Positions 33,807-43,470 of a DNA stretch of 52,947 nt are shown piece by piece. The position numbers and the translations under genes were made by a program. The DNA lies in assembly GCA_017942035.1 (NCBI GenBank), contig JAGAVG010000024.1, forward strand, positions 1 to 52,947, given 5' to 3'. The first letter of the stretch is position 1. Each line of letters opens with the position of its first letter. The stretch is from a bacterium (GTDB lineage Bacteria > Cyanobacteriota > Vampirovibrionia > Gastranaerophilales > Gastranaerophilaceae). Under the pieces are notes generated by a model. It saw only the letters and a program-made list of their open reading frames with translations, did not search any database and was not told the origin of the DNA.

Positions 33807-35132
33807 ATGTATGACTTGTACCCTTATTTTACTAACGATGGCTCTGTTGGGCTCTATTCACCACAGGCCGATGATATATACCATTCCGTCTATGGCGCCT
33901 TAACGGAAGCTTATCAAAAGTTTATTCTTCCGGCAGATTTCGAAAATTATTTCCTAAATAACAACCAAATAAAAATTCTGGATATTTGCTACGGAATTGG
34001 GTACAACTCAAAAAGTTTTCTGAATTATTTTTTTGAAAATATTTTTAAAAATAAAAAATTTTTTAATGATAAAAAAATGTGTACCGAAACGATATATACC
34101 GATAATAATTTAACAAATAAAAAATCTTGTTTTAGTTCTAATAGTACAACTTATAACGTGTCGTTACATACCGATAAAATTTTTGGCAATAAAAATATAA
34201 ATTCATCAGAAAATTATAAGATTTATATTAAAACAATTGATACCGATAAAAATTTAGTTTACCTTTCACCATTTTTCAAAAATTTCGGAAAAAATAAAAA
34301 AATGCTTTTTAGCAACGAAAAAATAGAGAAATTTCAAAAGGTTAAAGTTGAGAGAAAATATAAACTAAAAAAATATATAAATCATATAATATTTGAAAAT
34401 CTCATTAAAAATTTCGGATTGGATTTGTTTTCAAAAGAACTTGAGGATATTTTATTTGATAAAAAGTATACCAGTTTTTTTGACCCAAATATTTGCCGTT
34501 TGTACAAAAGTTATAAATTTACAAGGTATCCTAAGACCTCTAAAGGCTTACAACCAGCCTTCTTACATAATATATATTATAGGTATATTACTAAGCGCCA
34601 TAAAAAGGCCTTAAATGGCCTTAAAATCGATAATATTAATATTGAGTATAAAATCAATGATGCGCGCAATGTTTTATTAGAGGATAAAAACACATATAAT
34701 TTTGTTTTTCTTGATGGATTTACACCGGCAAAATGCCCTATGCTATGGACTGAGGAATTTTTTAAGCTTTTATACGAGCATTTGGATGAGGGCGGAATGA
34801 TTTTGACATATTCTTGCTCTGCAAACGTCAGAAATGCGCTTTCAAAAGCCGGATTTAATATCGGAAAAAATTATTCGGCGGAATTAAATAAAGATATTGG
34901 CACAATTGCCGTCAAAAATTCTGACGTTAAATACCCGCTTTCAGAATTCGATTTAGGGCTTATGAAAACTCGTGCAGGTATAATTTACCATGATAAAAAT
35001 TTCACGCTCACTAATGAGCAAATACTCGCGGCTCATAAAAAAGAGGTTGAAAATTCAACACTAATGAGCTCAACGAGTTATTTAAAAACTAAAAACAGAG
35101 AAACATTATGCAAAAATCATGAGAACAAGTAG
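33807..35132 (+). CDS. mnmD: tRNA U34 methyltransferase MnmD-like with a large low-complexity insertion
   Basis: SAM-dependent methyltransferase of the MnmC N-domain type (methylaminomethyl modification of tRNA wobble uridine). It starts LYPYFTNDGSVGLYSPQADDIYHS, has the SAM loop ILDICYGIGYNSKSF near residue 52, and LDGFTPAKCPMLWTEEFF near residue 305. At 441 residues it is about 180-200 longer than a minimal MnmD. The extra part, roughly residues 71-265, is A+T-rich, Lys/Asn-rich, and contains three copies of a repeated motif. No FAD domain is fused. Leaderless start after TATAAT. Confidence 0.85.
   Translation: MYDLYPYFTNDGSVGLYSPQADDIYHSVYGALTEAYQKFILPADFENYFLNNNQIKILDICYGIGYNSKSFLNYFFENIFKNKKFFNDKKMCTETIYTDNNLTNKKSCFSSNSTTYNVSLHTDKIFGNKNINSSENYKIYIKTIDTDKNLVYLSPFFKNFGKNKKMLFSNEKIEKFQKVKVERKYKLKKYINHIIFENLIKNFGLDLFSKELEDILFDKKYTSFFDPNICRLYKSYKFTRYPKTSKGLQPAFLHNIYYRYITKRHKKALNGLKIDNINIEYKINDARNVLLEDKNTYNFVFLDGFTPAKCPMLWTEEFFKLLYEHLDEGGMILTYSCSANVRNALSKAGFNIGKNYSAELNKDIGTIAVKNSDVKYPLSEFDLGLMKTRAGIIYHDKNFTLTNEQILAAHKKEVENSTLMSSTSYLKTKNRETLCKNHENK
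34090..34254 (+). repeat. Repeated ACCGATAA-core motif within mnmD
   Basis: CGATATATACCGATAA (34090-34105) and CGTTACATACCGATAA (34162-34177) fit CGNTAYATACCGATAA; ATACCGATAA also ends a third, looser copy (34240-34249). All three are in one reading frame, encoding IYTDNN, LHTDKI and IDTDKN. Confidence 0.8.
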
Positions 35133-38166: not shown

Positions 38167-39099
38167 CTAGCTCATCTGGGCATTTGCACCTGATACAACT
38201 TCAATAATCTCTTGAGTAATCATAAATTGACGTGATTTATTATATTGAATTGATAGTTCCGCAATCATTTTTTCTGCATTAGAAGTCGCGGCAGACATAG
38301 CGGTCATTCTGGATGCAAGTTCGCTTGCCTGCGCCTCTAACAAGGCTTGATAAACGATATTAACTATATACATAGGAACAATTTTTTGCAAAATATTATG
38401 CATATCAGGTGTGAATTCCATCAATGGTTCTATTATATTATCATGAAGTCTTTCGTAATCGTCATTCACGCCCTTTAGCGGCAAAATTTCCCAATCATCA
38501 ACTTTATAGGTCATCATATTTTTGAAACGTGTTGTGATAATTTCAATTTTGTCGATTTTTTTGCCTACGTAATATTCTGCAATGTCCTCTATAATCATTT
38601 TAGCGCCCTCAGGTGATGGCGTTGAGGCAACTGAAAGATAATTTTGTACAATCTCAAAACCTAACTCTTTTGCCTGTTTTTTTAAAGGAGACATTCCCTT
38701 TTGACCGACAACAAAAAGAGTGCATGAAATACCCTGTTTTTTATACTCTTTAATTTTAGAAATAGTATGTCTGATAACATTTGCATTATATGCGCCTGCA
38801 AGGCCTTTATTTGAGGTTATAACAAGTAGTCCTACAGATTTTATTTCTCGAACCTGCAAAAGTTCGGGATAATTATCTATTGCCGATTTGATTTTTAATG
38901 TTGCGGAACTGTAACTTCCGACAGATTTTAAAAGCTTTGCAAACATATAACAGAGCTCTCTGGTGAACGGTCTAGACGCCTTTACAGTATTTTCGGCTTT
39001 TTTAACCTTTGCCGCCGCAACCATTTTCATTGCACGAGTGATTTTTTTCGTGCTTTGAACGCTCTGTATTCGTGTTTTTATATCTTTTAAATTTGCCAT
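38167..39099 (-). CDS. atpG: ATP synthase gamma subunit
   Basis: Central rotor shaft. 310 residues: N-terminal helix ANLKDIKTRIQSVQSTKKIT-type start with ITRAMKMVAAAKVKKAE, and the C-terminal helix ASELASRMTAMSAATSNAEKM. Last gene of the cluster. It follows the zinc-binding membrane protein after 7 nt. Whether it contains the redox-sensitive insertion of photosynthetic gamma subunits: no Cys pair is visible. Confidence 0.95.
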   Translation of the reverse strand: MANLKDIKTRIQSVQSTKKITRAMKMVAAAKVKKAENTVKASRPFTRELCYMFAKLLKSVGSYSSATLKIKSAIDNYPELLQVREIKSVGLLVITSNKGLAGAYNANVIRHTISKIKEYKKQGISCTLFVVGQKGMSPLKKQAKELGFEIVQNYLSVASTPSPEGAKMIIEDIAEYYVGKKIDKIEIITTRFKNMMTYKVDDWEILPLKGVNDDYERLHDNIIEPLMEFTPDMHNILQKIVPMYIVNIVYQALLEAQASELASRMTAMSAATSNAEKMIAELSIQYNKSRQFMITQEIIEVVSGANAQMS

Positions 39100-39106
39100 T
39101 TGTGTA

Positions 39107-39436
39107 TTAATATCCTTTAATTAAATTCAATCCTATCAAAAGCGCAACTATAGCAAAAAATGCCCTTCCGAATTCAAAATCAAAAGCTGATGATACCAAA
39201 CCTATAGCTCCGACAACCGCAAACAAAACTCCGGCATAGTAGCCAATATTTAATGATTTTGCAAGCTGCCCATTATTATGGTTATGTTTGTGACATCCAC
39301 AGCCTTTATGACAAGCTTCACTGTCTTTGCATAAGACTTTGCCATTCTCTATTGTCATACATTCAAGGCACAATGCCTTTCCGCAGGATTTACAAATCCC
39401 AAATGCGTCTCTGTCATGATGATTAAAACATTTCAT
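39107..39436 (-). CDS. B-box-like zinc-binding membrane protein inside the atp operon
   Basis: 109 residues. The first 50 carry many metal ligands: MKCFNHHDRDAFGICKSCGK, ALCLECMTIE, VLCKDSEACHKGCGCHKHNH, resembling a B-box zinc finger (Cys3, His6/7, Cys15, Cys18, Cys23, Cys26, Cys36). Two hydrophobic segments follow (about residues 65-83 and 92-107), so it is probably anchored with the finger in the cytosol. It lies between atpA (19-nt gap) and atpG (7-nt gap) with GAAAGGAG upstream, so it is cotranscribed. No standard ATP synthase gene occupies this spot. Confidence 0.82.
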   Translation of the reverse strand: MKCFNHHDRDAFGICKSCGKALCLECMTIENGKVLCKDSEACHKGCGCHKHNHNNGQLAKSLNIGYYAGVLFAVVGAIGLVSSAFDFEFGRAFFAIVALLIGLNLIKGY

Positions 39437-39454
39437 AAAATTTCTCCTTTCAAC

Positions 39455-40966
39455 TTAAAAAGATTTTTTAAAGTTTTCCAAAGCCTTTTTCAATGCTTCC
39501 TTATCCTCATCACTTAAAGCAGAACCTTCATTCAGCCTTTGAGCTAAATCGGAGAGATTTGCTTCAAAATAGTTAAACCAGTCTATTTTAAACTGTTTAA
39601 TTTTTGAATTATCCACATCATCTAAGTAGCCTTCGTTTGCCGCAAACAATATTGATACTTGCTGAGCTACTGATAACGGGTTATATTGCGGCTGTTTTAA
39701 AACTTCAGTAAGTTTTTCACCTTTTCTCAACTGGTTTTTGGTGGCCTGATCCAAATCTGATGCAAACTGAGCAAAGGCTTCTAACTCTCTATATTGAGCT
39801 AAATCAAGTCTCAATTGTCCGGCAACCTGTTTGATAGCTTTTGTTTGTGCCGCACCACCTACACGAGAAACCGAAATACCAGCATTAATTGCCGGACGAA
39901 CACCGCTGTTGAACAAGTTGGTTTCAAGGAAAATTTGTCCGTCAGTAATTGAAATTACGTTAGTTGGAATGTACGCAGAAACATCACCTGCCTGAGTTTC
40001 AATAATCGGCAGTGCTGTAATACTTCCGCCGCCTAACTGGTCATTAAGCTTAACGGCACGTTCAAGAAGTCTTGAGTGAAGATAGAAAACATCTCCCGGA
40101 TATGCCTCACGTCCCGGCGGTCTTTTTAGAAGCAAACTCATCGCACGATATGCCTGAGCGTGTTTTGACAAATCATCATAGACAATCAAAACATCTTTAC
40201 CTTCTTCCATGAATTCTTCGCCGATTGCAACACCGGCAAAAGGTGCAATATATTGAAGCGGTGCAGATTCATTGGCTGTTGCGGAAACTATAATTGAATA
40301 TTCCATCGCGCCGCGCTCTTCCAAAGTTTTAGCTAATTGAGCAACAGTTGAGGCTTTCTGACCGATTGCAACGTAAATACAGATAACATTTTTACCTTTT
40401 TGGTTGATAATTGTATCAATGGCAATCGCGGTTTTACCTGTCTGACGGTCTCCGATAATCAATTCTCTCTGGCCTCTTCCGATAGGAGTAAGACTGTCTA
40501 TCGCGGTCAACCCTGTTTGAAGCGGCTGGTGGACTGATTTTCTTGTAACAATTCCCGGTGCAACCCTTTCAATCGGACGGTTTTTAGTATATTCATAATC
40601 GCCTTTTCCGTCAAGCGGTCTGCCTGTCGGATCAATAATTCTTCCGATAAGTCCGTATCCGACCGGCACAGATGCAATTTGACCGGTTGTTTTAACTGTC
40701 ATACCTTCTTTAATCTTTGTGTAATTACCGAGAACTACAATACCAACGTTATCTTCTTCGAGGTTCATTGCAATTCCAAGAGTGCCTTCACCGTCTTCAA
40801 ATTGAACAAGTTCATTTGACATTACATTTCTCAAACCGTAAACCCTTACGATTCCGTCACTGACTTCCAAAACCGTTCCGGTATTTGAAATATCGGCCTG
40901 TAAGTCGTAATTATCTATACGGCTTTTTATAATTGAACTAATTTCATCTGGTTGTATAAGTGCCAT
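39455..40966 (-). CDS. atpA: ATP synthase alpha subunit
   Basis: Non-catalytic nucleotide-binding subunit of F1, 503 residues. P-loop GDRQTGKT at residues 172-179, then [29 protein letters not shown] in two segments near 265-290, and the family signature [24 protein letters not shown] lies upstream of ATG. Follows atpH by 13 nt. Confidence 0.97.
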
Positions 40967-40979
40967 AAATCTGCGCTCC

Positions 40980-41522
40980 TTATCTTATGTTTTTACTCAA
41001 ACTTTTTAATTTTGTATCCACCGACAAATCAATAACATCATCATCAATTTTTATTACTAAGCCGGCTATTATACTTTCATTTACATTCCACAAAGGTTTT
41101 ACATTTTTTTTGATTTTGTTTTGTAATTTTTCAACAATTTCAGACTTTTGTGACTCTTCAAGCTCTACTGCAGAAGTAATTTCAACATTTTTAATGTTAT
41201 TTATCAAATCAAGTTCATCAAAATAAGCATTAATTATGTTTTCAAACTCATTAAACCTTGATTTTTTAATAATTATAGTAAAAAATTTCAAAATATTTTC
41301 ATCAATTTTTCCTGAAAAAACATCTGAAAAAACAAGAACTTTTTTATCATCGGCAATTGTCGGTGACACCAAAACATCATACAATTCCGGAGTCATTGAG
41401 GATTTAACAATATTTAAGTCCTCGGAAATTTTTTCAAAATCAGGAGTTTTGGCATACCCCAAATCAATTAGAGCATGCGCATAATTTTTTGAAATTTTTG
41501 TTATTTTCGTAATTTTATCCAT
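40980..41522 (-). CDS. atpH: ATP synthase delta subunit
   Basis: Peripheral-stalk subunit (OSCP homologue), 180 residues from [22 protein letters not shown]; this start lies 1 nt after the atpF stop and discards 36 upstream residues that overlap atpF. The C-terminal part shows the family's [19 protein letters not shown]. Confidence 0.92.
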
Positions 41523-41523
41523 T

Positions 41524-42024
41524 TTACAAATTAATCCTGTCAAGTTTGTCAATGCTTTCGCGTATAAATTTTTCGTGCAAATCTCTGCATTTTGCAAGTT
41601 CACTCTTAAGATATTCACGAGAAAGCTCAATTGCTTTTTCTGAGGCCTTTTTAAGCATTTCCGAGGACATTGATTTTTCTTCTGATGAAATAATATTTTC
41701 GGAATTTTTTAATATACCTTCAATATCATTACCCGTTTCTTCTTGAATTTTAGCGGCGACATTACCGGCCGAAACTTTTGCTCCGGATAGCTTTTCCTCT
41801 ATTTCTTGAGCAAGATTTGCGACTGCATTTTTCGCGCTGTTAAGATTATTAATGGCATTTTCTCTTTCAAGTTTTGCATCCTCGATTTTCTTAATAATGG
41901 CATTTTTCAGTCCCTCAAATTTGTCGCCTAATTTGAGATAATGCGCGATTAGGGCTATACATAAAAAAAGTATAGCAAAATTGAATGTATTTGTTTTTAA
42001 TATAAAATCAAAAATCTCGCTCAT
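41524..42024 (-). CDS. atpF: ATP synthase b subunit
   Basis: 166 residues: an N-terminal membrane helix (FNFAILFLCIALIAHYL, about residues 14-30) and a long charged helix, the peripheral stalk. Overlaps the b' gene by 1 nt. With b' it forms the heterodimeric stalk typical of Cyanobacteria and plastids. Confidence 0.9.
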   Translation of the reverse strand: MSEIFDFILKTNTFNFAILFLCIALIAHYLKLGDKFEGLKNAIIKKIEDAKLERENAINNLNSAKNAVANLAQEIEEKLSGAKVSAGNVAAKIQEETGNDIEGILKNSENIISSEEKSMSSEMLKKASEKAIELSREYLKSELAKCRDLHEKFIRESIDKLDRINL

Positions 42025-42485
42025 TATTTTATAACCCTGCTTATTAACTCACCATCAGAAATTTTGACATTTTCGCCTAAAATTTTTGATGATATACTCT
42101 CTGCAAGTTCAACTGTCACAGCATTTATCCTATCAGTCATATTATTTTTTTCATGTGATAAACTTAATTTAGCTTCATCAATTCTGCTTTTTGCTGAATT
42201 TCTAGCCTCAGAAATTTTCTCATCACGCATTTTATTTGCGGATGTAACTATTTCTGTCATAATATTTTTTGTAGTTTTATCTGTTTCAGCTAACCTGTAT
42301 TCCTTATCTTGTATAAGGCCGTCGGCTTTTTCGTTGGAATTTTTGGCATCAGAATATGCGTCATCAATAAATTTCTGACGCTCATTTACAATTCTCTCAA
42401 TCGGCCTGTAAAAAACGGCATTCATAATTACCGTAAATATTACAAAACTGATTGCTGATACTATAAATGTTGCATTAAATTCCAT
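42024..42485 (-). CDS. atpF2: ATP synthase b' subunit
   Basis: 153 residues: membrane helix ATFIVSAISFVIFTVIMNAV at the N-terminus, then FYRPIERIVNERQKFIDD, typical of b/b', and a long coiled helix. The presence of two different b-type genes in tandem (b' first) points to a cyanobacterial-type enzyme. Confidence 0.9.
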   Translation of the reverse strand: MEFNATFIVSAISFVIFTVIMNAVFYRPIERIVNERQKFIDDAYSDAKNSNEKADGLIQDKEYRLAETDKTTKNIMTEIVTSANKMRDEKISEARNSAKSRIDEAKLSLSHEKNNMTDRINAVTVELAESISSKILGENVKISDGELISRVIK

Positions 42486-42500
42486 ATATACCGCCTGTTA

Positions 42501-42743
42501 CTAGAACAATCCTACCAATTTAGCCGCAATAACGAATGCGTAAAGTGCACAAGCTTCTGATAATGCAGCACCAAGAAGGAAGAAACCGAAAGCTTTTCCG
42601 GCAACTTCAGGCTGTCTTGAAACTCCATCCATCAAACCTTTAGTTGCAACACCGATACCAAGTCCGGCACCGATTGCGCCAAAACCCATTGCAATACCTG
42701 CACCTAATTTTGCAAATTCTGTAATTGTTGTAACTTCTGTCAT
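42501..42743 (-). CDS. atpE: ATP synthase c subunit
   Basis: 80-residue hairpin of the rotor ring. Loop SRQPE and carboxylate Glu63 in GAALSEACALYAF. The residue after Glu is Ala rather than Ser/Thr, and the position taken by Gln in Na+-binding rings is Ile30 (GLGIGVATKG), so proton coupling is inferred. AAAGGAGAA precedes ATG. Confidence 0.95.
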   Translation of the reverse strand: MTEVTTITEFAKLGAGIAMGFGAIGAGLGIGVATKGLMDGVSRQPEVAGKAFGFFLLGAALSEACALYAFVIAAKLVGLF

Positions 42744-42777
42744 ATTTTTCTCCTTTATTTAATAATTAATAAGTTTT

Positions 42778-43470
42778 TTAATGTTCTTCAGTTTGAGCCG
42801 CTGATGATACGTAGGCAATCGTCAGCATCATAAACACAGTTGCCTGAATAAACGCAACTATGAGTTCAAATATCATAACCGGAATCGGTAAAAAAGCCGC
42901 TGAAATTCCGAGACAAATAGCAACCAGAACTTCTCCTGCAAATATATTTGCAAAAAGTCGAATTGCTAGGCTCAACGGTCTTGTGAACATTTCCAAAAGC
43001 TCTACCAAAAACATTATGATACCTTGAAAGCTGAATTCGTGGATAAAGAATTTTCCTTTTTTAGCTTTTAATCCGGCCGTAATATAATATATCAAAACTA
43101 ATATCGCAAGCGCCGCCGTTAAATTTATATCATTTGTCGGAGATGCAAGTTCTCCATGCTTTAAATGTATAATTCTCAACGGTAATTGTCCCATTAAATT
43201 AGCCGTTAAAATGAATAAAAAAAGTGATGCAACAAAAGGAACATGCTGGCGATTTTTTCCCGGCATCATAGTGTCCATGACACCCCAAAAAAATTCCATT
43301 ATTTTTTCACAAGCAGCTTGAGTTCTTGAGGGAACCATTTGCGCTTTTCTCGTAACGATTAATGAAATTACAATTAGAAAAGCCATTGCAAGCCACATTG
43401 TAATAATTGTGTCGAGATTAACACTAAATGTATGTCCCGCGATATTAAAACTATAAAGCCAATGTTCCAT
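42778..43470 (-). CDS. atpB: ATP synthase a subunit
   Basis: 230-residue membrane stator of Fo. The essential Arg is in RPLSLAIRLFANIFAGE (Arg171), and the last helices ELIVAFIQATVFMMLTIAY are typical. First gene of the atp operon (atpI is absent). GAAGGAGAG precedes ATG. Divergent from birA over 132 bp. Confidence 0.95.
   Translation of the reverse strand: MEHWLYSFNIAGHTFSVNLDTIITMWLAMAFLIVISLIVTRKAQMVPSRTQAACEKIMEFFWGVMDTMMPGKNRQHVPFVASLFLFILTANLMGQLPLRIIHLKHGELASPTNDINLTAALAILVLIYYITAGLKAKKGKFFIHEFSFQGIIMFLVELLEMFTRPLSLAIRLFANIFAGEVLVAICLGISAAFLPIPVMIFELIVAFIQATVFMMLTIAYVSSAAQTEEH

Follow-up and report, generated by a model that had tools for sequence, protein, structure and literature searches.

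ATP synthase is among the best-studied machines, and to our knowledge bacterial ATP synthase operons rarely hide unknown genes. The window analysed here, a stretch of 52,947 nucleotides from a Gastranaerophilaceae genome, raises the question of what a small gene for a Cys/His-rich membrane protein does between atpA and atpG. This gene, here called zf, is under purifying selection and has a conserved place at the junction and eight conserved ligand positions. We tentatively read it, with a probability of about 0.4, as a lineage-specific, non-essential accessory factor of F1Fo in part of the Gastranaerophilales, acting in assembly, stability or F1 tethering. If this is true, zf would be a new ATP synthase accessory factor, conserved, selected and probably zinc-binding, placed between alpha and gamma. 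Its hosts are gut bacteria, related to cyanobacteria but not photosynthetic, and their ATP synthase may work in reverse. The small B-box-like bacterial membrane proteins, widespread and functionally open, would gain a first concrete partner to test, and the patchy presence of zf supplies natural pairs with and without the gene within single genera.

Gene, operon and place at the atpA-atpG junction

The 109-residue reading frame that the original prediction placed between atpA and atpG, behind a good ribosome site, is present. It has an ATG start and 109 codons on the minus strand, begins 18 nt past the atpA stop, ends 7 nt ahead of the atpG start and is preceded by AAAGGAG. The minus-strand order is atpB (a), c, two b-type subunits, delta, alpha, zf and gamma; the b-type subunit of 166 aa scored 24.8 against a Pfam cut-off of 28. 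The epsilon gene is located on a separate contig (C48), which splits the atp genes; the genome comprises 84 contigs and 1,994,118 bases in total. The features are as follows.

38167..39099, minus strand: atpG, F1 gamma subunit (Pfam)
39107..39436, minus strand: zf, gene for a 109-aa protein predicted to be a membrane-anchored cross-brace zinc finger (reading frame, orthologues, dN/dS)
39113..39118, minus strand: AAAGGA in the last zf codons, likely the atpG ribosome site (suggested by sequence)
39119..39175, minus strand: predicted membrane helix 2, residues 88-106 (hydropathy; AlphaFold helix 89-108)
39182..39238, minus strand: predicted membrane helix 1, residues 67-85 (hydropathy; AlphaFold helix 64-86)
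39302..39436, minus strand: predicted zinc-finger domain, residues 1-45, ligands C3, H6, C15, C18, C23, C26, C36 and C42 (alignments; AlphaFold pLDDT 90 for residues 1-48 alone)
39444..39450, minus strand: zf ribosome-binding site AAAGGAG, in the 18-nt gap between atpA and zf (sequence)
39455..40966, minus strand: atpA, F1 alpha subunit (Pfam)
40980..43470, minus strand: remaining operon, with delta, two b-type subunits, c and a, atpB being first (Pfam)

At least 4 nt of AAGGAGG were found upstream of zf in 27 of 27 orthologues, and the ribosome-site match was stronger for zf than for atpG (mean 5.9 versus 3.5 nt). The AAAGGA motif inside the 3' end of zf makes translational coupling from zf to atpG possible. 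Promoter-like sites between atpA and atpG were no more numerous than in shuffled sequences. Terminator-like sites numbered 9 against 4.8 expected. Among them were one in atpA and one in zf, both on the operon strand; the two gaps flanking zf contained none. We infer that zf is co-transcribed with atpA and atpG.

We then surveyed 191 genomes of the family, 187 of which gave an AtpG match. With the zf protein as query, 38 of the 191 matched with an E-value of at most 0.1, and 28 of these with one of at most 1e-8. The atpA-atpG junction was read for 148 of the 187 AtpG-positive genomes (those left out include one whose atpG starts at base 41 of its contig), and 145 were measurable after three were dropped because atpA was not found in the stretch examined. 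An orthologue of zf occupied the atpA-atpG junction on the same strand in 27 of the 145, representing 7 of 33 genera (7/9 genomes in g14, 7/9 in g11, 4/7 in g2, 3/3 in g23, 3/8 in g25, 2/8 in g8 and 1/3 in g1). All but one of the 28 strong matches were at the junction, the exception being G092. A profile search of 286 genomes of the order matched 38 genomes of the family, 26 of them already in the first set; the 12 additional ones all had zf between atpA and atpG, so that 38 of 38 carried it at the junction. The closest named relatives, among the best 80 of 95 kept from a scan of named records, came from Candidatus Gastranaerophilales or Melainabacteria. In 56 of these 80 loci zf is preceded by atpA and followed by atpG, all in one orientation. 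Most of the 24 without that order belonged to other phyla; L248 and the Obscuribacterales locus L270 were also among them. Named loci and family genomes overlap, and their counts are not additive.

The junction is otherwise mostly closed: 104 of 118 zf-free family junctions had an atpA-atpG gap shorter than 90 bp, in agreement with the earlier statement that the alpha-gamma order is normally uninterrupted. The expectation that relatives would share the insertion was borne out in part: distant genera keep zf at the exact site, but both other genomes of the window's own genus lack it and have clean gaps of 12 and 8 bp. Since the other junctions, including these two, are mostly clean, zf is patchy and dispensable. 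No relic of zf was found in the long zf-free junctions; the best tblastn match (L041, E 0.001 over 18 residues) was discounted. An assembly error of one bin was rejected, as many separate genomes and named records carry the gene.

In 24 computable pairs among the 30 closest, dN/dS was 0.02-0.31, the other six being saturated; zf is under purifying selection. The conserved junction, the eight-ligand pattern described below and these ratios together reject a chance reading frame. On a host tree built from 171-330 AtpA residues and 33 AtpG residues, the presence of zf was clustered, requiring 13 changes versus a mean of 25.1 in shuffled data (minimum 21); a single gain would need 21 losses. Distances between zf proteins correlated with those between hosts (Mantel r 0.41 with the finger alone and 0.54 with the full-length protein; none of 2000 permutations reached these values). 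This history fits mostly vertical inheritance with frequent loss, to which local exchange of the atp operon may have added.

A predicted cross-brace finger on a variable anchor

The Cys/His-rich finger of the original prediction was recovered at the N terminus, where all 55 distinct zf sequences have an eight-ligand metal pattern. Among 51 aligned proteins, C3, H6, C15, C18, C23, C26 and C36 are invariant and C42 is nearly so; R9, D10, A11, G19, K20 and L22 are also invariant. When other phyla were included (43 sequences), M1 and the same seven ligands were invariant, with C42 at 90% or more. AlphaFold predicted the finger alone (a 48-residue model) with a pLDDT of 90. The closest structural neighbours of the model, all of them weak, were mostly zinc fingers of the cross-brace type, with RIM2 at Z 4.5 (rmsd 2.5 over 44 residues), FYVE at Z 4.1 and B-box chains at Z 2.8-3.1 (CONSTANS B-box, Z 3.1); no neighbour exceeded Z 5. 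Foldseek with the finger model gave no match at E 0.001, and the PDB contained no clear sequence relative of zf (best E 0.18).

Copies outside the operon were informative about the ligands. One is present in L059 (G092, from position 1501) and two lie in tandem in L248 (G418, from 4001 and from 4369); the atpA-atpG gaps of the two genomes are 28 and 19 bp. In all three copies C3, H6, C23 and C26 are retained, whereas the residues of ligand pairs 2 and 4 are gone. The joint loss of these pairs supports two separate zinc sites, formed by pairs 1 and 3 and by pairs 2 and 4. The ligand pattern thus supports a putative cross-brace finger with two interleaved zinc sites, and more than one line of evidence predicts the fold and the topology.

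No NCBIfam model matched zf, and the window protein gave only sub-threshold matches in Pfam. One was to the B-box (PF00643; 17.0 bits, E 0.0069, gathering score 24.1), whose eight-ligand motif is C-C/H-C-C-C-C-H-H (PMC4506424). The first six ligands of zf (C-H-C-C-C-C) fit this motif, but the last pair, instead of His-His, is Cys-Cys in 54 of the 55 sequences and Cys-His in the remaining one. Another was to DUF2180 (PF09947; 15 bits, gathering score 22.2), an uncharacterised archaeal family, with the match confined to the first part of the finger. Although the window protein fell below this cut-off, 32 of 51 members of the zf family matched DUF2180 at E 0.01 or better (best 2.3e-6). Of ten scanned singly, L202, L210, L239 and L240 passed the cut-off and six failed, one of which, L246, is a distant relative.

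Zinc-finger membrane proteins related to zf are present in many phyla. The B-box-like ones in L246, L253, L258 and L268 begin with a finger whose eight ligand positions match those of zf and, judged by eye, also have a C-terminal hydrophobic part. Unlike zf, they do not lie near ATP synthase genes; the atp-linked clade has in addition a one-helix form of 68-70 aa and the invariant R9-D10-A11. Among 33 loci from other phyla, with flanks of up to 4 kb, none had atp genes near the zf relative. Small bacterial B-box-like membrane proteins are already known as a class in broad terms, and the principal paper on binuclear treble clefs of prokaryotes is reportedly that of Burroughs and colleagues. We found no description of the conserved atp-operon place of zf in the open-access papers searched.

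The two membrane segments proposed for the window protein agreed with both hydropathy and the AlphaFold helices. Across the 55 distinct proteins, zf comes in a one-helix form (30 proteins) and a two-helix form (25 proteins). The C-terminal tail was positively charged in 25 of 25 two-helix forms; in one-helix forms the flank ahead of the helix was positive in 27 of 30 and the tail in none of the 30. These charges put the finger on the cytosolic side in either form. Neither the sequence nor the helix number of the membrane part is conserved, which counts against an accessory role at the ATP synthase. Because the anchor varies while the finger does not, the finger is probably the working part of the protein. 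A PDB fold search with the whole protein returned helix hairpins only, with no clear match; hits to ATP synthase chains from eukaryotes (9b0x_H and 6zg8_H) and Chloroflexus (9itt_I), at Z 5.4-7.4, occurred amid unrelated hairpins and were taken as chance.

Possible roles beside the ATP synthase

zf lies within the atp operon and is conserved there, as an accessory or assembly factor would be. A membrane-bound finger on the F1 side, the place between alpha and gamma and the stronger ribosome site together suggest a helper of F1Fo biogenesis or stability. Such a protein would be anchored in the membrane through its C-terminal helix or helical hairpin, with the finger facing the cytosol, the side where F1 sits, and would be made from one message with alpha and gamma; it would probably aid F1 assembly, stability or docking to Fo. 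The assembly factor of the original prediction fits this anatomy, while the role itself, like any physical interaction with F1Fo, we infer. AtpI is usually encoded at the start of the operon. A search for ATP-synt_I (PF03899) in 40 family genomes found no match over the cut-off and one weak match, so AtpI does not visibly fill a membrane assembly role in the family. The zf protein did not match PF03899 either, and membership of zf in the AtpI family was rejected for lack of homology. zf may nevertheless be compared with CGL160, Atp1 and AtpI, which are likewise membrane-anchored with a domain on the F1 side, but to which it is unrelated, differing also in its zinc finger and its place between atpA and atpG. 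A passage in PMC9806626 describes how membrane-anchored CGL160 recruits soluble CF1 through its N-terminal part, a mode of action that zf would resemble; this support from the literature is indirect. The more specific proposal, that zf is a cytosolic binuclear zinc finger sitting beside Fo, produced in concert with alpha and gamma, guiding or stabilising F1 and replacing an AtpI-type factor not detected in the family, we consider rather unlikely in this full form.

Several observations count against an accessory role. Most family genomes lack zf though their atpA and atpG are intact, and its repeated absence excludes a strictly required ATP synthase factor. No column of the AtpA C-terminal or AtpG N-terminal regions tracked zf beyond tree label rotations, of which 25 of 100 reached the observed maximum. 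The same facts favour the main rival, in which zf is a passenger, a general-purpose membrane zinc-finger protein that works elsewhere and exploits the strong, constant expression of the atp genes, having been inserted once and lost repeatedly. A passenger would also account for the relatives away from atp genes in other phyla (0 of 33 loci, which likewise speaks against an accessory role) and for the off-operon copies in G092 and G418, where the junction is closed. However, every full-ligand copy in the family, in all 38 profile-matched genomes, sits in the atpA-atpG junction, and the off-operon copies are without half their metal ligands, as if the function had changed once the link was broken. 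Because zf is often absent, has relatives off the atp genes and is tracked by no AtpA or AtpG position, we hold the accessory role no higher than stated above and regard a passenger as only slightly less probable.

Improbable, in our view, is a regulator of the direction or activity of F1Fo, such as one that brakes ATP hydrolysis in response to zinc or redox state in a fermenting host where F1Fo works as a proton pump. It draws on a passage of PMC5877343, which proposes ATP hydrolysis by the FoF1 of a termite-gut relative as the source of a proton gradient, and on the description of fermenters without an electron transport chain in part of PMC3787301, which also states there that ion gradients may drive ATP synthesis. 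Also in its favour, the window gamma aligns well to solved bacterial gammas and without the long chloroplast segment (query 207-220 versus chain 233-276), so gamma control of the chloroplast kind is absent. A hydrolysis brake would be sensible if FoF1 hydrolyses ATP, but the sequence gives no hint of one; no known inhibitor family matched, and the eight-ligand pattern in 55 of 55 sequences is what a structural zinc site would give. The earlier suggestion of a metal or redox sensor gained nothing in particular from these invariant ligands. Least probable, and disfavoured, is that zf is a mobile gene at a junction that tolerates inserts. In six named loci (L211, L216, L217, L221, L227 and L228) an ORF6N-domain gene of about 170-196 aa, of phage-regulator type (Pfam E 7.8e-37 in L216 and 1.6e-33 in L227), lies between zf and atpG, and the L162 junction, which is without zf, has an apparent ORF6N remnant. 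The 482-bp gap of L075 (G166) contains several copies of a tandem repeat of about 70 bp, and that of L321 (G039), about 1.1 kb, a gene that by eye looks like one for a type IV pilin. Against this, zf was the sole credible gene in the 145 junctions apart from the ORF6N gene adjoining it (among reading frames of at least 25 aa, in gaps of at least 140 bp). The junction is therefore not a general insertion hot spot, and zf follows the host phylogeny.

Two minor observations concern other genes. In G055 the atpG match is in two pieces (L326 and L323; query 1-60 and 96-307), perhaps through a frameshift or an assembly error. Within the window, positions 33807-35132 encode a 441-aa protein that by eye resembles a methyltransferase of the MnmC type interrupted by a long insert rich in Asn and Lys.
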